In this document: positions 744 to 55,690 of the stretch, in pieces | How the letters are laid out: the number at the start of each line of letters is the position of its first letter | How positions within the stretch are numbered: the stretch's first letter is position 1 | Source of the DNA: a candidate division WOR-3 bacterium | Lineage (GTDB): Bacteria > Hydrothermota > Tepidihabitantia > Tepidihabitantales > CAIPLT01 | DNA: 58,315 nt | Direction: 5' to 3' | Assembly: GCA_026418155.1 (NCBI GenBank) | Contig: JAOABV010000006.1 | Location: forward strand, 1-58,315 | Program-made: the position numbers and the translations under genes | The notes under the pieces: model-generated | Seen by the model: the letters and a program-made list of their open reading frames with translations, nothing else | Databases searched by the model: none | What the model was told of the DNA's origin: nothing

Positions 744-780
744 GGTAGTGTATAATATTTAGACTTGATATGCTAAAAAT
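744..780 (+). repeat. R1 element, copy E (promoter-adjacent)
   Basis: This copy carries GGTAGTGTATAATATTT followed by AGACTTGATATGCTAAAAAT. It aligns with three other copies at 6135-6194, 20745-20804 and 55587-55646, but lacks about 11 internal bases (TGTGTAAATTT) that they share. It ends 7 bp before the -35 box of the pilin promoter. Confidence 0.65.
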
Positions 781-787
781 TTTTTGC

Positions 788-816
788 TTGACAAATCATG
801 AATTTTCTGTTAAAAT
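788..816 (+). promoter_or_regulatory. sigma70 promoter for the pilin-like gene
   Basis: TTGACA at 788-793 and TAAAAT at 811-816 are separated by 17 bp. Transcription would begin near 823, giving an approximately 80-nt leader. The leader holds a small hairpin (CTCCAA 837-842 with TTGGAG 849-854), and ACCTCC at 835-840 could instead pair with the Shine-Dalgarno GGAGGT at 891-896. Confidence 0.75.
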
Positions 817-5420: not shown

Positions 5421-5873
5421 TTATCTGCGTCGGGCTTTTTGTTCGATGCGTTCGGTTCGTTCGATTGCCCGTGCTTTTAATTTTTCTCTAATATCGTGCA
5501 TCTTTTTACCTTTACATAAAGCCAGTTCGATTTTAGCAAAACCTCGTTCATTAAAATAGAATTTCAGTGGTATAAGGGTAAATCCGCGTTCTGCAACTTT
5601 ACCATATAACCTTTTAATCTCATCTTTATGTAAAAGCAGTTTCCGTTTGCGTTTGGGGTCACGGTTGAAGATATTACCTTGTTTGTAGGGTGCAATATTG
5701 ACATCGTAAAGATAAACTTCTCCGTTTTCAACAGCAGCATAGCCACCATTAAGAGAAACACCGCCGGCGCGAGCGGATTTTACTTCTGTGCCACAAAGTT
5801 GAATTCCAGCTTCATACTTGTCAAAGATAGTATAATTATGAAATGCTTTTCGATTAGTAGCAACTATTTTCAT
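5421..5873 (-). CDS. smpB: SsrA (tmRNA)-binding protein
   Basis: SmpB, 150 aa from the chosen start, partners tmRNA in trans-translation to rescue stalled ribosomes. Recognised by IVATNRKAFHNYTIFDKYEA, GTEVKSARAGGVSL and a basic C-terminal tail ending EQKARRR. An in-frame ATG 48 bp upstream (5921) would add MILGRNLFIYFNLALI, which falls inside an intergenic tandem repeat and is not part of the family; the start at 5873 is preferred. It heads the smpB-amidase-murI-rph-rluD cluster. Confidence 0.95.
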   Translation of the reverse strand: MKIVATNRKAFHNYTIFDKYEAGIQLCGTEVKSARAGGVSLNGGYAAVENGEVYLYDVNIAPYKQGNIFNRDPKRKRKLLLHKDEIKRLYGKVAERGFTLIPLKFYFNERGFAKIELALCKGKKMHDIREKLKARAIERTERIEQKARRR

Positions 5874-5884
5874 AATTAAGGCTA

Positions 5885-6092
5885 AGTTAAAATATATAAA
5901 TAAATTTCTTCCTAAAATCAAAAATATATAAATTTCTTCCTAAAATCATAAAACAATCAGTCAAGAAGTTAAGATATATAAATTTTGTGCTAAGATCATA
6001 AAATAAAGATAATGGGTTAAGTTAAAATATATAAAACTTTGTCTCGAAATCATAAGATAATAAGTTAAATTAGCCCTAAAAGCATAAGTTAA
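5885..6092 (-). repeat. imperfect tandem repeats in the smpB leader
   Basis: Four to five degenerate copies of a unit of roughly 36-52 bp, reading on the plus strand like GTTAAAATATATAAA followed by TTTGTCCTAAAATCATAAA. Copies begin near 5885, 5921, 5968, 6020 and 6063. They fill nearly the whole 5' leader of smpB. Confidence 0.7.
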
Positions 6093-6120: not shown

Positions 6121-6134
6121 GTCCTAAAATATAA

Positions 6135-6194
6135 GGATATACCTTTATTTTTAGTATATCAAGTCTAAATTTACACAAAATATTATACACTATC
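6135..6194 (-). repeat. R1 element, copy A (promoter-adjacent)
   Basis: Read on the minus strand this carries GATAGTGTATAATATTTTG, AAATTTAGACTTGATAT and ACTAAAAATAAAGGTATA. It aligns base for base over most of its length with copies at 20745-20804 and 55587-55646. It sits between the divergent smpB and secA promoters. Confidence 0.8.
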
Positions 6195-6385: not shown

Positions 6386-9300
6386 ATGTTAGCAAAGATT
6401 CTTAGTAAAATATTAGGCACAAAGAACGAACGGGAGTTAAAAAGGCTTTGGCTAAAGGTTGCGGAAATTAATGAGGTTTGGGAAAAGTTAAAAGACCTTC
6501 CTGATACCGAACTGCCTAAAAAAACCGAAGATTTTATTGCCCGAATACAAGATGGCGAAAGTTTAGATGACATTCTGCCCGAAGCATTTGCCTTAGTAAA
6601 AGAAACCTGCCGAAGACTGTGCGGTAAAAAATGGTTGGTTTGTGGTATTGAAACAATCTGGAATATGGTACCTTTTGATGTTCAGTTAATTGGCGCAATC
6701 GTGTTACACGAAGGTAAAATTGCGGAAATGAAAACCGGTGAGGGTAAAACTTTAGTTGCAACTATGCCCTTATATTTAAATGCCTTAACTAAACGCGGTG
6801 TCCATTTAGTTACAGTTAATGATTATTTGGCGCGTCGCGACCGCGAATGGATGGGACCGATTTATGAAACTTTAGGATTAACTGTCGGCTGTATTCAACA
6901 AGGCATGGAACCAACAGAAAGAAAACCCCATTATAATGCTGATATTACCTATGGCACTAATAACGAATTTGGTTTTGATTATCTGCGCGATAATATGGTC
7001 ATAAGATGGGAAGATAAGGTCCAAAGAGGCCATTATTATGCCATTGTTGATGAGGTCGATTCGATTTTAATTGATGAAGCCCGCACGCCCTTGATTATTT
7101 CTGGACCGGTTGAAGCCTCAGACCGCGGGTTTGATAATCTGACGCCATTAGTCAAACGCGGCTACCAATCACAGACGATTTTAGTCAACCGGCTGGTGGA
7201 AGAAGGCGAAAAGTTGTTACGAGAAGGTAAGGCCTATGAAGCCGGTATAAAGTTTCTTCAAGCCCGACGGGGCTCACCGAAAAATAAACGGCTAATGAAA
7301 GTAGAGCAAGAGGAAGGTGTCAAAAAACTAATTGAAAAGGTGGAATTAGATTTTATCCGCGACAAAAAACTTCATGAACTCGATGCCGAATTACTATTTG
7401 TTGTCGACGAAAAAAATCATACAATTGATTTAACGGAAAAAGGACGCAATTTTTTAGCACCTAATGACCCAGAATTTTTTACTTTACCAGATTTGTCCTC
7501 AGAAATAGCAAAGATTGACCGCAATGAAAAACTCACACCCAAAGAACGGATTTATGAAAAAGAAAAGGCATATGAACGGTATGCGAAAAAGAGTGAAATC
7601 TTGCATAATTTTCAGGCTTTACTCAAAGCATACACTCTGTTTGAAAGAGATGTTGATTATATTGTTCAAGATAATAAAGTAATTATTGTTGATGAATTTA
7701 CTGGCAGATTAATGCCAGGCCGAAGATTCTCTGATGGCCTTCATCAAGCTTTAGAAGCCAAAGAAGGCGTTCGGGTTCAAGAAGAAACACAAACATTGGC
7801 TACAATCACAATTCAGAATTATTTCCGAATGTATGAAAAACTTGCAGGAATGACCGGTACCGCAGTGACTCAAGCCAGCGAGTTCTGGTCAACTTATAAA
7901 CTGGATGTGATTGAAATTCCAACTAATGAACCAGTTCGTAGAATTGATTACCCAGATGTAATTTATAAGACCCGGCGAGAAAAATATAACGCGGTATTAG
8001 ATGAAATTGAAAAATGGCATCGGCAGGGTCGACCAATATTAGTCGGTACAACCTCTGTAGAAGCATCAGAAACTCTATCCCGAATGTTAAGGCGCCGAGG
8101 CATTAATCATCAAGTATTGAATGCTAAATATCATCAAAAAGAAGCCGAAATTGTTGCCCTCGCTGGCCAACCTGGTGCAGTCACAATCGCAACTAATATG
8201 GCAGGAAGAGGAACCGATATTAAACTTGGCAAAGGCGTAGTCAAAGGCGAAGGTTGCTATATTACTAAACACACAGGTGGAAGATGTCAAATCTGGGAAG
8301 AAAACGGTCCGTGTATTGACGAAGTGCCCTGCGGTCTTTATATTATTGGCACCGAAAGGCATGAAGCCCGAAGAATTGATAATCAATTGCGCGGTCGAAG
8401 TGGAAGACAAGGTGACCCAGGCTCAACCCGATTCTTTTTGTCTTTAGAAGACGATTTGATGCGACTCTTTGGTTCTGACCGATTAGCAAACATTATGGAC
8501 CGATTTGGCGTTAAAGAAATGGAACCAATCCAACATCCTTTAGTCAGTCGAGCAATTGAGAACGCGCAAAAACGAGTAGAAGCCCGTAACTTTGAAATCC
8601 GAAAGCATCTTTTAGAATATGATGATGTCATGAATCGCCAGCGAGAAGTAATTTACCATTTGCGTGACCAAATCTTAAAAGGCGAAAACCTTTTTGAGAT
8701 TTATTCGGCGGCAGTTGATGATGTAGTTGACCGCATAATTGAAAAATATGCTACAGATAAATATCCGGAAAATTGGGATTGGGATTCAATTAAAGGCGAA
8801 TTTGGGATAATCTTTCTGGCTGATTTTACCATTGATAAAAAGGAGATACCATTAATAAAAGCAAAAGATTTATCGGAATCATTAAAAAAGATTGCGCGGG
8901 AACAGTATTTACAACGGGAAGCAGAATTAGGCAAAGAGATATTTTCTGAACTTGTCAAAGCGGTTTTTTTGCGTATAATTGACCATAAATGGCGCGACCA
9001 TCTTTACGATTTAGATATTCTCCGAGAAGGGATTGGTTTAGTGGCATATGGCCAAAAGGACCCACTCATTGAATATAAACAAGAATCGTTTCAGATGTTT
9101 AATCAAATGATGGCGGATTTTAACAAAGAGGCAATAAGTCTTTTGTTTCGGGCTCAGGTGCAAACAACTGAGAGTCGAAGCGACCGTGCACGAAGACCAT
9201 CTCAGCCCTTAAGAGCTTATAAACCGACAGTAATAACTGCAGTTGGTGGCCAACCTACTTCTGCAGATGTTTCACCCCACACCGCGTCTCAATCGACTTC

Positions 9301-9424
9301 AAATAAAAAAGAGACGCCCGTACAGACCTGGTCGCATCGCTCAGAAAAAATAGGTAGAAACGAGCCCTGTCCTTGTGGGTCAGGGAAAAAATATAAAAAA
9401 TGTTGTGGCAAAAACCAATATTAA
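6386..9424 (+). CDS. secA: preprotein translocase ATPase SecA
   Basis: This 1012-aa motor drives post-translational export through SecYEG. Walker A (KTGEGKT) is at residues 116-122; DEVDSILIDEARTPL follows in the first nucleotide-binding domain. GTTSVEASE, NMAGRGTDIKLG and QLRGRSGRQGDPG mark the second. The C terminus carries the zinc-binding SEC-C motif CPCGSGKKYKKCC, which contacts SecB or phospholipid. An insertion relative to the shortest SecAs follows the preprotein cross-linking region (VNRLVEEGEKLLREGKAY). No secY is present in the window, although the spc cluster that often contains it is. Confidence 0.97.
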   Translation: MLAKILSKILGTKNERELKRLWLKVAEINEVWEKLKDLPDTELPKKTEDFIARIQDGESLDDILPEAFALVKETCRRLCGKKWLVCGIETIWNMVPFDVQLIGAIVLHEGKIAEMKTGEGKTLVATMPLYLNALTKRGVHLVTVNDYLARRDREWMGPIYETLGLTVGCIQQGMEPTERKPHYNADITYGTNNEFGFDYLRDNMVIRWEDKVQRGHYYAIVDEVDSILIDEARTPLIISGPVEASDRGFDNLTPLVKRGYQSQTILVNRLVEEGEKLLREGKAYEAGIKFLQARRGSPKNKRLMKVEQEEGVKKLIEKVELDFIRDKKLHELDAELLFVVDEKNHTIDLTEKGRNFLAPNDPEFFTLPDLSSEIAKIDRNEKLTPKERIYEKEKAYERYAKKSEILHNFQALLKAYTLFERDVDYIVQDNKVIIVDEFTGRLMPGRRFSDGLHQALEAKEGVRVQEETQTLATITIQNYFRMYEKLAGMTGTAVTQASEFWSTYKLDVIEIPTNEPVRRIDYPDVIYKTRREKYNAVLDEIEKWHRQGRPILVGTTSVEASETLSRMLRRRGINHQVLNAKYHQKEAEIVALAGQPGAVTIATNMAGRGTDIKLGKGVVKGEGCYITKHTGGRCQIWEENGPCIDEVPCGLYIIGTERHEARRIDNQLRGRSGRQGDPGSTRFFLSLEDDLMRLFGSDRLANIMDRFGVKEMEPIQHPLVSRAIENAQKRVEARNFEIRKHLLEYDDVMNRQREVIYHLRDQILKGENLFEIYSAAVDDVVDRIIEKYATDKYPENWDWDSIKGEFGIIFLADFTIDKKEIPLIKAKDLSESLKKIAREQYLQREAELGKEIFSELVKAVFLRIIDHKWRDHLYDLDILREGIGLVAYGQKDPLIEYKQESFQMFNQMMADFNKEAISLLFRAQVQTTESRSDRARRPSQPLRAYKPTVITAVGGQPTSADVSPHTASQSTSNKKETPVQTWSHRSEKIGRNEPCPCGSGKKYKKCCGKNQY

Positions 9425-20655: not shown

Positions 20656-20744
20656 TAAAGAGGGTAGCGACAAGAGTTCTGTTAAATTTTCTTTTCTTCA
20701 TTAGGAGTGTTCTTCTTTTCTTATTAAAAATTGTCCATCATAAG

Positions 20745-20804
20745 AGATATACCTTTATTTTTACCATATCAAGTCGAAATTTACACAAAATATTATGTAC
20801 TACC
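20745..20804 (-). repeat. R1 element, copy B (promoter-adjacent)
   Basis: On the minus strand it contains AATATTTTGTGTAAATTTC, GACTTGATATGGTAAAAAT and AAAGGTATATC. Homology with copy C extends about 90 bp further to the left. It ends 16 bp before the -35 box of the plus-strand promoter at 20821. Confidence 0.8.
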
Positions 20805-20820
20805 TTAAAGCGAATAATAG

Positions 20821-20848
20821 TTGACTATTGATTTTACTCAGTTATACT
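20821..20848 (+). promoter_or_regulatory. promoter for the beta-barrel gene
   Basis: TTGACT (20821-20826), 16 bp, TATACT (20843-20848). The same box pair and spacing occur at the rpsJ promoter. Confidence 0.75.
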
Positions 20849-22962: not shown

Positions 22963-23322
22963 AAATCCCAATAGGTTATTTCTCTACTGCTATTATTAGT
23001 AAATAAGATAGAGTGTTTTTTTCCCTTTTTAGATGTGATATAATTGAAAGAATTTTTATTCGAAATGCAAAACTATTACGATACGCCCCTAATTTCGGGT
23101 GAGAATTTAATAATTAAAAAATATTCTTGTTTTCTTGGATGAACTTTATAGGTGTCTTAATAGTTTAGATAGACTATCACGATGTTAGGCGTATATTTAA
23201 AAATTAGTAAATGGGTATGATTTTTTGATGAACTTTATTGGTGTTTTAATAGTTGAGTTAGGCTATCACGATGTTAGGCGTATATTTAAAAATTAGTAAT
23301 AGGCATGATTTTTTGATGAACT
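22963..23322. other. intergenic region with duplicated 3' tail of the M23 peptidase gene
   Basis: The right-hand two thirds consist of two extra tandem copies of the M23 peptidase tail. The left third (22963-23130) is AT-rich and holds nothing I recognise. The two converging genes end on either side. Confidence 0.75.
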
Positions 23323-23371
23323 TTATTGGTGTTTTAATAGTTGAGTTAGGCTATCACGATGTTGGGCATAT
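23131..23371 (-). repeat. tandem repeat (88-90 bp, three copies) of the M23 peptidase 3' end
   Basis: Units begin at 23131, 23221 and 23309. The third lies partly in the gene and encodes its last residues YAQHRDSLTQLLKHQ and stop. The middle unit encodes the same peptide except that Gln3 is a stop codon (CAA to TAA), and the first is more diverged. All share GGCTATCACGATGTT or a near match. Confidence 0.9.
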
Positions 23372-24513
23372 AAAGAAAAATATTCAGGTTTTACTGGTTC
23401 GGCTCGAGGCGGAATTATTTTTAATGGATTAACCCATTGTCCATTGCGCAAGATTTCAAAATGAAGATGCGGTCCGGTGGCTAACCCGGTTGCACCAACA
23501 TAACCAATAACTTGCCCTTGGTAGACTTTTTTGCCAGTTCTTATGCCGGCACCAAAACCACTTAGATGGCCATAGCGTGATTTGAATCTTTGAGCATGAG
23601 CAATCTCGATTAATCGACCATAACCTTGTTTCCAACCAGCAAAAGTAATCGTGCCATCGCCAATCGCAGATACAGGAGTTCCTTGGGGCGCAACATAATC
23701 AACACCGTGATGGGGACGGACAATTCTTAAAATCGGATGATATCTTCTTTTACTAAAAAAAGAACTGACGCGAGAATAGCGCAAAGGTGATTTTAAGAAT
23801 GCTTTGCGCAAAGATTTACCTTCTTTGTCATAATAGTCTTTATTTCCTTTGGGGTCAATAAAATAAAATCCATAGAAATCGCCAATTCTTCCTTTATACC
23901 TTACTGCTTTTATTTGTCCATATGCAACGCATAACGAATCAACATATTTTTTTTCTACTAATACAAAGAAAGAATCACCGGTCTGGGTTTCTGTAAAAAA
24001 ATCGATTTCCCAGGATAATATATCTGCATAATCAGATACCAGTTCTGCAGTTTCTCCTTGGTTAAGCATTGACTCGTATAATGACGAGGATATCGCACCT
24101 TTTACTAATTTAGGTTCGGTTTGGACATTGATATACGCCATTGCAACCGAAGGGGTGTCATTTTGTAGGCGGATGAGATAAATGTTAGCATAATTTTTCT
24201 TATACTCGATTTTTATTAAAGTATCGTTCTGATAAAAAAACTTAAAAGTATCTGTGGTTCTAATGCTTTTGAATGGAAAGTTTATCAGTGAAAGCGATTT
24301 CATTATTTTTTCATTAGTTGATGGCAAGATTCCTACGCGGTTTAAGAGTGTGCTTAGAACTTCACCGGACTTAATTGTGTAATTTTGTATAGCAATTTTA
24401 GGCTTTACTGGCTTATGGGTGGGCTTTTGACTGCAACTCCCAATTATCAATGATAAGGCTAAAAGTGATTGGTAAAAAACAATGCGCGTGATACGAACAA
24501 TGAATGACATCAT
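23323..24513 (-). CDS. M23 family peptidoglycan endopeptidase (lipoprotein)
   Basis: This 396-aa protein has a lipoprotein signal (LLALSLIIGSC lipobox), a LysM/OapA-like segment (YTIKSGEVLSTLLNRVGI, about 43-60) and a C-terminal LytM/M23 zinc domain. Zinc ligands fit HHGVDYVAP (H and D) and the HLHFEILRNG motif near the end. It would cleave peptide cross-links in peptidoglycan during growth or division. Its ATG overlaps the aspS stop codon by one base (TAATG), so translation is coupled. The 3' end is the third copy of a tandem repeat. Confidence 0.93.
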   Translation of the reverse strand: MMSFIVRITRIVFYQSLLALSLIIGSCSQKPTHKPVKPKIAIQNYTIKSGEVLSTLLNRVGILPSTNEKIMKSLSLINFPFKSIRTTDTFKFFYQNDTLIKIEYKKNYANIYLIRLQNDTPSVAMAYINVQTEPKLVKGAISSSLYESMLNQGETAELVSDYADILSWEIDFFTETQTGDSFFVLVEKKYVDSLCVAYGQIKAVRYKGRIGDFYGFYFIDPKGNKDYYDKEGKSLRKAFLKSPLRYSRVSSFFSKRRYHPILRIVRPHHGVDYVAPQGTPVSAIGDGTITFAGWKQGYGRLIEIAHAQRFKSRYGHLSGFGAGIRTGKKVYQGQVIGYVGATGLATGPHLHFEILRNGQWVNPLKIIPPRAEPVKPEYFSLYAQHRDSLTQLLKHQ

Positions 24514-25808: not shown

Positions 25809-26198
25809 AATTTTTATATTATAGTATTATATAGTATTAATTGACTTTTCAATCACTATCTGGGCTCCACAGTCAGCGGTTTGTGGTTTCCTAATTGGGC
25901 GATTGCTATTTTTGAAAAAAGATTTAATCATTATTTAATATCCTATTTAAATTTTTTAAGATGTCAACAAAAAGTATTAGCAACTTCTAAAAGATAAATT
26001 TTTATTTTCCGCAAACATCCGTAAAACCGACTTCATTCTGATTAACAAAAGTCTATTTACCCCGGTCAGGTTTGAATATAACACTATATAATTAAACATT
26101 TTTTGTGTCCTATCGCCCGTTTTCCAATGCTCACACGGTAGCGTCACGAATTTGGGTAAATTCTTTTTCTTCCACAAAGGCTTAACTAACTATAACTC
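25809..26198. other. aspS-glnA divergent intergenic region
   Basis: About 390 bp, AT-rich, with no gene. It contains a short CCACA...TGTGG inverted repeat near 25869-25886. TATAAT-like sequences occur just upstream of aspS, without a well-spaced -35 box. Confidence 0.6.
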
Positions 26199-26226
26199 TT
26201 GACTTTTTATTTTTATTGATGATAAT
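26199..26226 (+). promoter_or_regulatory. promoter for the glutamine synthetase gene, leaderless arrangement
   Basis: TTGACT (26199-26204), 16 bp, GATAAT (26221-26226, preceded by T as TGATAAT). The expected start point near 26233 falls at the ATG (26234). Confidence 0.7.
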
Positions 26227-26233
26227 AGTTTTT

Positions 26234-27679
26234 ATGACATCTTCAATTAAATACGATGACCGAGGAAGTCTCCATTCATCTAATCCTAATAAATTAAAGG
26301 CATTAACAGATGCAGATTTTATTGACCTTAAATATGTTGACCTTTTAGGAAAATTAAGACATCTTACTTTTCCCATATCCTATCTGAGGATTGCTAAAGA
26401 AAAAGGTGTCGGGTTTGATAGTTCTTCTTTAAGAGGCTTTAAGCGAACGGAACGGAGTGATTTAATCTTAGTGCCAGACGAAACTTCGTCTTTTGTTGAC
26501 CCCCTTTTTTCTGCAAAGACCTTATCATTTTTTGCTAATATCTATTATCCCTACAAGTTCCGAGACGAGACAAAAGCTGCTAATTATGCTATGCGCCAAC
26601 GATATGAAAAAGACTCAAGATGGATTTTACAAAAAGCGGTTGATTTAATTAAGAATGAAATGAAAGTAGATAGAATTTTATTCTTACCGGAACTTGAGTT
26701 TTATGTCTTTACCCATATTTCGGCAATAAGTGGTGGAAATCGAATTGGTGAACAGTTCATCTGGGAGGAACAATTTTCTGACCTGAAATCAAAATCTTAT
26801 CTTAGTGTTCTTCAAGAGGCAGTGGCAATTTATAGTGATGAGCGAACTTCAGGCATAACCGGTTCTTATCATCAGGCACCACCGGCTGATGTTTATGCTG
26901 AAGACCGTAATCAATTAGTCAAAATGCTTGAAGGTTGTGGCGTGAAGGTAAAATATCACCATCATGAAGGTGGTGAATTTGGTCAGTCCGAGATTGAAAT
27001 AATTTATAATGAACCGTTGTCAACAGCGGACAACATTGTAATTGCTAAATACATCATAAAAAATTATTTTTATCGACTGAATAAATTTGCAACCTTTATG
27101 CCGAAACCACTTAAAAATCGCCATGGTTCAGGACTGCATTTTCATCATATTCTGGAGCGAGAGGAAAAATCTCTATTCAAAGGTAGAAACGGAAGTCTTT
27201 CTCAATTGGGCGAGAATTATATTAAGGGCATTTTGTCGCATCTGGCTTCACTTTGTGCTTTTTGTAATCCCACAACTAATTCGTATAAACGATTAACTGG
27301 CGGTTTTGAAACTCCCCGTGCGCCAACCGTGGGGTTTGCGGACCGAACTTCAGCAATAAGAATACCGGGCTATGCGGAAGATTTTCCCATTGAATATCGG
27401 GTGAGTGATGCTACTTGTAATCCCTATTTAGCCTTAGCTGCTTTGCTTTTAGCCGGTCTGGATGGAGTGAGAAATAAAGGAAATTTAAAATTTAGTAGAA
27501 TTCCAAGTTCTTTAAAATTTGCCGTGGATGCCTTAAAAAATGATTCCGCATATTTGACCCGCGATGAAGTCTTTCCTCAAGAAGTCATCGAGTTTTGGAT
27601 TGAAACCAAATCCGAGGAAGCCCAAGAGATTAACCTGACACCCAGTCCCATTGAATTCGTTTATTATTTTGATTTGTAA
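26234..27679 (+). CDS. glnA: glutamine synthetase-like protein (divergent GlnA)
   Basis: This protein of 481 aa has the glutamine synthetase fold: FDSSSLRGF (FDGSS-like), ELEFYVF and QSEIEI metal ligands, GSGLHFHHIL (GSGMHxH-like), NPTTNSYKRL and a C-terminal EYRVSDATCNPYLALAALLL. It departs from canonical GlnA in DRTSAIRIP (normally NRSAxIR) and in HHEGGEFGQSE (normally HHEVAPGQxE). It may be a true synthetase or a related gamma-glutamyl ligase. The upstream in-frame ATG (26216) lies inside the promoter; the ATG at 26234 coincides with the predicted transcription start and has no Shine-Dalgarno. Confidence 0.8.
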   Translation: MTSSIKYDDRGSLHSSNPNKLKALTDADFIDLKYVDLLGKLRHLTFPISYLRIAKEKGVGFDSSSLRGFKRTERSDLILVPDETSSFVDPLFSAKTLSFFANIYYPYKFRDETKAANYAMRQRYEKDSRWILQKAVDLIKNEMKVDRILFLPELEFYVFTHISAISGGNRIGEQFIWEEQFSDLKSKSYLSVLQEAVAIYSDERTSGITGSYHQAPPADVYAEDRNQLVKMLEGCGVKVKYHHHEGGEFGQSEIEIIYNEPLSTADNIVIAKYIIKNYFYRLNKFATFMPKPLKNRHGSGLHFHHILEREEKSLFKGRNGSLSQLGENYIKGILSHLASLCAFCNPTTNSYKRLTGGFETPRAPTVGFADRTSAIRIPGYAEDFPIEYRVSDATCNPYLALAALLLAGLDGVRNKGNLKFSRIPSSLKFAVDALKNDSAYLTRDEVFPQEVIEFWIETKSEEAQEINLTPSPIEFVYYFDL

Positions 27680-34630: not shown

Positions 34631-35244
34631 TTGGTTTAATTGGTCGAAAAGTTAGGATGTCACAATTGTTTTCTGATGCGGGAAAGGTGATTCCCGTGAC
34701 AATTGTTAAAGCCGGTCCTTGCTTTGTAGTCCAAAAAAAGACCAAAGAAAAAGACGGCTATGATGCCTTACAATTAGGTTTTGAACCAAAACCCAAGGCC
34801 AATAAACCAATCACCGGCCATTTTAAGAAGAGTAATTTAGAACCGATGAAGGTTCTGAGAGAGATTCGATTAACTGATAATGAGATTGAAAAGTATGCAG
34901 TTGGTCAAGAATTACGAGTAGATGTTTTTAGTGAAGGTGATTTAGTATCTGTAACTGGTTTAACCAAAGGTCGTGGTTTTGCTGGTGGGATGAAGCGATG
35001 GGGTTGGCATGGCGGACCTGCCTCGCACGGTTCAATGTCGCATCGCCGAATCGGCTCGCTCGGTTCTGGTAGTTCTCCAGGACATCCTTGGCGAGGCCGA
35101 AATTTACCTGGTCATTACGGTATGGAAAAAGTGACGATTAAAAACCTTAAGATTGTTAAAATTGATAACGAGAATAATCTTTTATATATTAAAGGCGCAA
35201 TTCCTGGTTCTTCGTATACGCCTGTAATTATAAAGAAACAATGA
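34627..35244 (+). CDS. rplC: 50S ribosomal protein L3
   Basis: L3, 205 aa, an early-assembly protein near the peptidyl-transferase centre. [11 protein letters not shown] at the N terminus and [20 protein letters not shown] plus [18 protein letters not shown] are diagnostic; the latter holds the Gln/Asn-methylation-loop region. The last 20 codons ([16 protein letters not shown] and the preceding YIK) are duplicated twice downstream of the stop. Confidence 0.97.
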
Positions 35245-35460
35245 GTAAAATAAGCGTGTTAATGGTATATATTAAAGGCGCAATTTCTGGTTCTTCGTAT
35301 ATGCCTGTAATTGTAAAGAAACAATGAGTGAAATATTATCTTTAATGGTAGAAACTATTATTAAAGGCATAATTTCTAGTTTTTCTCATATGCCTGGAAT
35401 TGTAAAAAAACAATGAGTGAAATAAGCGTGTTAATGTCATACACAATCAAAAGGTGAAGT
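35185..35460 (+). repeat. tandem repeat (83-89 bp, three copies) of the rplC 3' end
   Basis: The first copy is the end of rplC (stop 35242-35244). The second ends with GAISGSSYMPVIVKKQ and stop 35325-35327; the third with GIISSFSHMPGIVKKQ and stop 35414-35416. Reading frame and stop are kept in every copy. Each extra copy also has an in-frame ATG (35262 and 35345), giving mini-ORFs of 21 and 23 codons. The linker AAATAAGCGTGTTAATG appears after the first and third copies. Confidence 0.92.
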
Positions 35461-53908: not shown

Positions 53909-54251
53909 TCATTAAAAATTGATTTAGTAGAATTTTATTCGGATTTAAGAGACCCAAAATTTACCATAACAAGATTACCTAAAATCTATATCATTATTTT
54001 ATATTTGAATGTTGAGAGTTTTTATTTCGTTAATCTCAGCAGCTTGTAAATGTCTGGAGTTATAAAAATGTCTGCAGTTATAAAAATCTCTGTAGTTATA
54101 AAAATCTCTGTAGTTATAACAATATGACTAAATTTGATTATTTTTTTGTCATAAAGCATTTGGTTCTTTATGGAATTTCATTAGGATTAATTTAAGGTGG
54201 AACGAACACAGAATTATTCGAGAGGATTTTTAATTTAGCAAGTAAGAAATA
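53909..54251. other. rpsK-rpsD intergenic region
   Basis: A 343-bp break in the usual S13-S11-S4 gene order, with no gene. It contains an 18-bp tandem repeat (54053-54124) and lies upstream of the separate rpsD promoter. Confidence 0.7.
54053..54124 (+). repeat. 18-bp tandem repeat, four copies
   Basis: TCTGGAGTTATAAAAATG, TCTGCAGTTATAAAAATC, TCTGTAGTTATAAAAATC and TCTGTAGTTATAACAATA in direct succession. Confidence 0.95.
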
Positions 54252-55149: not shown

Positions 55150-55646
55150 TACTATACAGTTTATGAGATTTAATTATAATGGATATGTGAAACAGGTCTT
55201 GAAATTAGCAAAAATTAATTTTAACCGTTTATTCAAAAACATAGTGTTCTGGAAAAGCGCTCTGGAACTATTTAAAAACACAGCAAAATAAGTAATGTGG
55301 GGTAAGTTCCTTATATTAATCGGCAAAACTTGATTTTTCAGACTTCTTTTCAATGAACTCACTGGACGGAAATGTCAATTCTTGCTATTGGATAAATAAA
55401 TTGAACTTATTGAATATGTTTCTTATTTTTTCTGTGAGTTCTCTGATACGGATGCGCACTGTAAGTGTTTCCTTAGCACTTTTTATAATACTCTTTAAGA
55501 TAGCATAAAGAATTTTGTTTAATTTCTTTTCTCTTCCATTAGGGGTATTTTCTTTTTTATTGTTATTAAAATTGTCTGTCATAGGAGAATACACTTTTAT
55601 TTTGAAAATATCAAGTCTAAATTTACACACAATATATGCACTGTCC
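55150..55646. repeat. dispersed degenerate non-coding element, fullest copy
   Basis: Successive parts align with other places in the window: 55268-55355 with 17655-17735; 55363-55471 with 32369-32466; about 55500-55646 with about 20670-20804; and the last 60 bp (R1) also with 6135-6194 and 744-780. No copy has a conserved reading frame. Confidence 0.6.
55587..55646 (-). repeat. R1 element, copy C (promoter-adjacent)
   Basis: On the minus strand GTGTAAATTTAGACTTGATA is present, followed by TTTTCAAAATAAAAGTGTAT. It ends 15 bp before the -35 box of the rpsR promoter. Confidence 0.8.
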
Positions 55647-55661
55647 CCCTTTAACTAATAC

Positions 55662-55690
55662 TTGACAGAAGCAAAAAAATTAAGTATGCT
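55662..55690 (+). promoter_or_regulatory. promoter for rpsR-rplI, leaderless arrangement
   Basis: TTGACA (55662-55667), 17 bp, TATGCT (55685-55690). Expected start near 55697, on top of the two tandem ATG codons at 55695 and 55698. Confidence 0.8.

Follow-up and report, generated by a model that had tools for sequence, protein, structure and literature searches.

R1, a promoter-adjacent repeat of a Ca. Stahlbacteria/WOR-3 genome, is very likely the left end of an IS256-derived MITE with promoter-directed insertion

R1 copies in the window and in the host genome

The window, that is, the whole 58,315-nucleotide stretch of contig JAOABV010000006.1 that was analyzed, contains five copies of the element to which the repeat denoted R1 belongs, each adjacent to a predicted promoter. 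Copy 1 (744..789, + strand) is a degenerate left end only (27 bits), with its truncated right side about 7 bp from the -35 box of a pilin-like gene (905-1561); the predicted promoter of this prepilin-type (N_methyl) gene, which starts at 905, is TTGACA-17-TAAAAT (788..816, +). Copy 2 (6134..6194, - strand), also a left end only, is 61 bp long and is located between the divergent genes smpB (5421-5921, -) and secA (6386-9424, +), its truncated side lying about 13-14 bp from the -35 box of the predicted smpB promoter, TTGACG-16-TATAAT. Copies 3 (20663..20804, -) and 4 (55499..55645, -) are full-length MITEs. The intact left end of copy 3 lies 16 bp upstream of TTGACT-16-TATACT (20821..20848, +), the predicted promoter of gene 20900, and that of copy 4 lies 16 bp from the -35 box of TTGACA-17-TATGCT (55662..55690, +), the predicted promoter of the operon containing rplI. 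Copy 4 is flanked by a degenerate 9-bp target duplication (TTAAAGGGG / TTAAAGAGT, 7/9 match). Copy 5 (26137..26184, -), a right end only, has its truncated side 14 bp from TTGACT-16-GATAAT, ahead of the glutamine synthetase gene (26216-27679). The preliminary description placed the first four copies and their distances to the -35 boxes correctly but missed copy 5, and the unit of about 55 bp that it proposed is too short, given the extent of copies 3 and 4. Other repeats in the window are three tandem units of ~88 bp (23108-23372; 75-89% identical) that adjoin the end of gene 23323-24513 and three ~83-bp tandem units amid small genes (35183-35437), both unrelated to R1, along with an array of 18-bp tandem units (AAATGTCTGNAGTTATAA-like; 54048-54119) close to the S13 gene.

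The 1.74-Mb host genome, which belongs to the Ca. Stahlbacteria/WOR-3 lineage, carries ~98 copies or fragments of the R1 element, nearly all of them intergenic. End-profile searches combined with local analysis yielded 98 deduplicated copies, among which 19 retain both ends, 54 the left end only and 25 the right end only, with fragment lengths from 42 to 230 bp. Across the whole assembly, the 18-mer core, with at most three mismatches allowed, produced 72 matches, compared to 10 for the reversed control, and a query of the host genome with the right end retrieved fragments that contain the right end alone, with no left end. According to the preliminary description, numerous matches inside genes would have marked R1 as an ordinary dispersed repeat; 4 of the 98 copies are inside an open reading frame of at least 120 aa, against the 64% expected from random placement.

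When the family is laid out, the left boundary is sharp (GGTAGTGTATAATATTTTGTGTAAATTTAGACTTGATATGTTAAAAATAAAGGTG...) and the right boundary is variable. The full copies span GGTAGTGTATAATATTTTGTGTAAATTT...AAATTACACAAAATTCTTGACGCTACC, or ~147 bp, with imperfect terminal inverted repeats of ~28 bp, the right terminus (...GAAATTACACAAAATTCTTGACGCTACC) being an imperfect inverted repeat of the element start; a shorter form of ~112 bp has spread in the host genome as well. The element thus combines the features by which MITEs are recognized, being short, multi-copy, bounded by terminal inverted repeats, devoid of a transposase gene and derived from an IS. Homology over the full length of ~147 bp excludes the possibility that the copies are unrelated promoters sharing similar UP sequences. 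A peculiar arrangement is found at locus L034 (G000:C1:30011-30185), where three left ends follow one another at a spacing of ~65 bp, the last one 1 bp from a TTGACT promoter, which would reflect several insertions beside the same promoter or else a tandem duplication there.

An IS256-family parent

Other genera of the class contain intact IS256 elements that share the ends of the R1 element and have 8-9-bp target duplications. The element in G041:C1 (L105/L165) is bounded by terminal repeats and encodes a 398-aa transposase that matches PF00872 (3.7e-90) and the NCBIfam IS256 model NF033543 (1.3e-94), scoring as an IS256 equivalog with 317 bits against a cut-off of 150 bits; its target duplication is the 9-bp GGCGGTCAG, and those of other relatives are ATGGTTGAC in G028 (L166) and GCGAAGCG in G052 (L167). 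More distant is L108 (JAJRUP010000087.1), an IS256 element with a transposase 32% identical, the left end of which is identical to the consensus over 28 bp. When public genomes were scanned for the end of the R1 element, 5 records only were returned, two of them bearing the names WOR-3 SM23_42 and Ca. Stahlbacteria; around the element, these two agree in sequence with G045 and G052, which places the host in this lineage.

In the host genome, a single perfect (9/9) target duplication, TATATGAGA, was detected, at L001, and most of the full copies have no recognizable target duplication. No intact PF00872 transposase gene was found in the 95%-complete host assembly, but remnants persist. The right-end fragment L116 encodes, in frame, a transposase C-terminus (44% over 62 aa, E 2e-8, tblastn), and on contig C7, a transposase pseudogene interrupted by stops comes after a left end that is itself 15 bp away from a -35 box. 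Given that the relatives' IS256 elements have the same ends and that the host retains transposase remnants, the R1 element is identified as an IS256-derived MITE, the ~147-bp form consisting of the left end and transposase leader of the IS joined to its last ~36 bp. Three type-B left-end fragments (L030, L032, and L017) encode MKQYNLHLSKKEYNNPWLIIKDYLHEDHEDY after the leader. The type-B peptide (MKQYNLHLSKKEYNNPWLII...) has no Pfam match and does not align with the transposase N-terminus of the relative L096; it is probably a candidate N-terminus of the lost transposase.

Some of the conserved blocks can be interpreted by reference to ISCth4, where the promoter formed at the circle junction has its -35 at right-end bp 6-11 and its -10 at left-end bp 8-13 (PMC7780238). 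In the R1 family, 39 of the 73 left ends have TATAAT at bp 8-13, and 18 of the 44 right ends have TTGACG at bp 6-11. Because these positions equal those in ISCth4, the TATAATATT block is, by analogy of position, the -10 half of a putative junction promoter, and the right-end TTGACG would be its -35 half. The core AGACTTGATAT and the next block, AAAATAAAG, overlie a putative weak transposase promoter, TTGATA-17-TATCCT. The leader, GGTGTATCC...GGAGGATACACC, which precedes the transposase start, is predicted to form a hairpin that covers the ribosome-binding site (z -4.9), a weaker version of which is predicted in the MITE (z -1.6).

Spacing to promoters and truncated copies

We scored each outer flank for an outward-facing sigma-70-type promoter using a hand-set weight matrix, so that the promoters discussed here are predictions, with random intergenic positions from ~300 kb of the same host genome serving as the control. 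A -35 box lies at 13-18 bp from 18 of the 116 intact ends, compared to 0.6% of the control positions (binomial p 3e-20). A promoter within 60 bp was scored for 28 of the intact ends, and 18 of these 28 have it at 13-18 bp, against 10% expected (p 6e-12), which bears out the earlier impression that the abutment to -35 boxes is regular and non-random. Within the 13-18 bp window, most of the intact ends are at 14-17 bp, with the mode at 15-16 bp. The same spacing recurs in the relatives, where 9 of 11 elements are located 15-16 bp from a -35 box: a near-consensus promoter is found exactly 15 or 16 bp away from L165, L166, L170, L097, L099, L100, L103, and L184, and, by visual reading, at 15 or 16 bp from the right end of L167; L171 and L098 depart from this spacing. 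No promoter was seen at those ends of L168 and L169 (transposases 49% identical) or of L108 that the analysis covered, and promoter targeting may therefore be limited to a clade at ~60% identity or more.

The promoter can be faced by either end of the element, the left end being the more common among the intact copies, which accounts for two of the originally described R1 copies pointing one way and two the other. For 48 of the 98 copies, no promoter was scored within 20 bp on either side; their promoters may have decayed, a contig end or a nested copy may intervene, or the insertion may have been untargeted. Taken together, the sequence comparisons make us confident that R1 consists of the left terminal inverted repeat and the leader of a MITE that descends from an IS of the IS256 family, and that insertion of this MITE is promoter-directed. 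Abutment to -35 boxes would then reflect target choice, with host promoters as targets rather than cargo. Of the readings initially offered for R1, the end of a small mobile element that supplies promoters was accordingly half right: R1 is the end of a mobile element, but one that inserts beside promoters already present in the host.

Among the copies with a single end, 32 lack the promoter-proximal end and 7 the distal one (p 7e-5 for the departure from an even split). The truncation junction is 6-9 bp away from the -35 box in 19 of the 32 such cases within 16 bp. Subtracting a 9-bp duplication from 15-16 bp gives 6-7 bp, as if the second target copy were absent and the insertion had been completed at one end; later deletion halted by the promoter also predicts a similar pile-up of junctions. 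Truncated copies might, additionally, be kept because they provide a second promoter, the putative transposase promoter TTGATA-17-TATCCT, in tandem with that of the gene itself. Such retention, although compatible with promoter-directed insertion and in line with the 26 left-end-only copies that point to a host promoter within 20 bp, 16 of which are long enough to include the internal promoter, seems to us rather improbable, given that the internal -10 is lost in 10 of the 26 and that right-end-only fragments are placed alike without any internal promoter.

We consider it very unlikely that the MITE inserts at random and that purifying selection spares the copies upstream of promoters. The near-absence of copies from genes is indeed also expected from selection, but selection of this kind predicts broad distances, as opposed to the narrow peak at 15-16 bp, where the 13-18 bp range takes up so little of random intergenic space, and the same peak is seen for the intact elements of other genera, which have clean target duplications. 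The least probable explanation is that the repeat is a cis-regulatory element, a regulator-binding site or UP element as the preliminary description also proposed, retained by the host: half of the copies are within 20 bp of a promoter, housekeeping genes included, but many copies face none, and a regulator operator or UP element is contradicted by the facing of promoters by either end, in either orientation, and by a transposon anatomy in which copies of widely differing length are parts of one element that has terminal repeats, is flanked by target duplications, and has left remnants of its transposase.

Proposed mechanism and comparison with known transposons

As the sequences show, promoter-directed insertion places an intact end, either of the two, 15-16 bp upstream of a sigma-70-type -35 box, with the generation of an 8-9-bp target duplication. 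The insertion point is thereby close to -50, the binding region of the C-terminal domains of the RNA polymerase alpha subunits, and from this position, we suspect that the transposase locates its target via promoter-bound RNA polymerase. Movement would follow the IS256 copy-out/paste-in route, with the junction promoter arising where the element ends meet in the circular intermediate. The truncated copies would be relics that retain the promoter-distal end, and the family appears to be dead or nearly dead in the host genome.

If this interpretation is correct, promoter-targeted transposition extends to the IS256 lineage and to the Stahlbacteria/WOR-3 phylum. Comparison of the R1-type transposases with non-targeting IS256 enzymes could reveal the part of the protein that recognizes promoters, and the ~98 dead copies would serve as natural markers that chart the sigma-70-type promoters of an uncultured lineage.

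Like other bacterial MITEs, the R1 element is a short, non-autonomous, intergenic, internally deleted IS derivative with terminal repeats; it differs from them in its fixed promoter spacing, in the many end-only fragments, and in that no intact helper transposase was found in the genome. The R1 MITE is thus of a known kind, but its insertion habit is unreported for the IS256 family. With IS256 elements (p-MULT 1), such as ISCth4, the R1 parent shares the transposase family and the 8-9-bp target duplications, and the half-promoters of ISCth4 occupy the same end positions as those of the R1 element (PMC7780238). A survey of 109 elements, however, found the insertions of the IS256 family to be random, with no promoter enrichment (PMC3942029), unlike the R1 element, whose insertions cluster 15-16 bp ahead of -35 boxes. 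We found no later report of IS256 promoter targeting in a literature search that covered mainly open-access papers.

The closest parallels in insertion habit come from elsewhere among the Mutator-type transposases. TnGBS/ISLre2 (p-MULT 3) insert upstream of sigma-A promoters at a distance of 15-17 bp from the -35 box, and the ISKra4 group (p-MULT 4) shows a similar spacing with a weaker signal, the promoters being predicted on both sides (PMC3942029). The R1 element shares its spacing with both groups, all of them Mutator-type, but the transposase families differ, and membership in p-MULT 3, which the spacing alone would fit, is ruled out because the R1-type transposase scores as an IS256 equivalog. 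It is conceivable, although we regard this more specific scenario as tentative and would not call it likely, that a lineage of IS256-family transposases became promoter-directed without any contribution from p-MULT 3 or 4, probably through recognition of promoter-bound RNA polymerase, and that near promoters they often fail at the promoter-proximal end, such one-ended insertion giving rise to the junction peak 6-9 bp from the -35 box, closer to it than the intact ends by one target duplication. The two kinds of elements also differ in their orientation: in TnGBS/ISLre2, it is the right end that adjoins the promoter, whereas in the R1 element, either end can do so.
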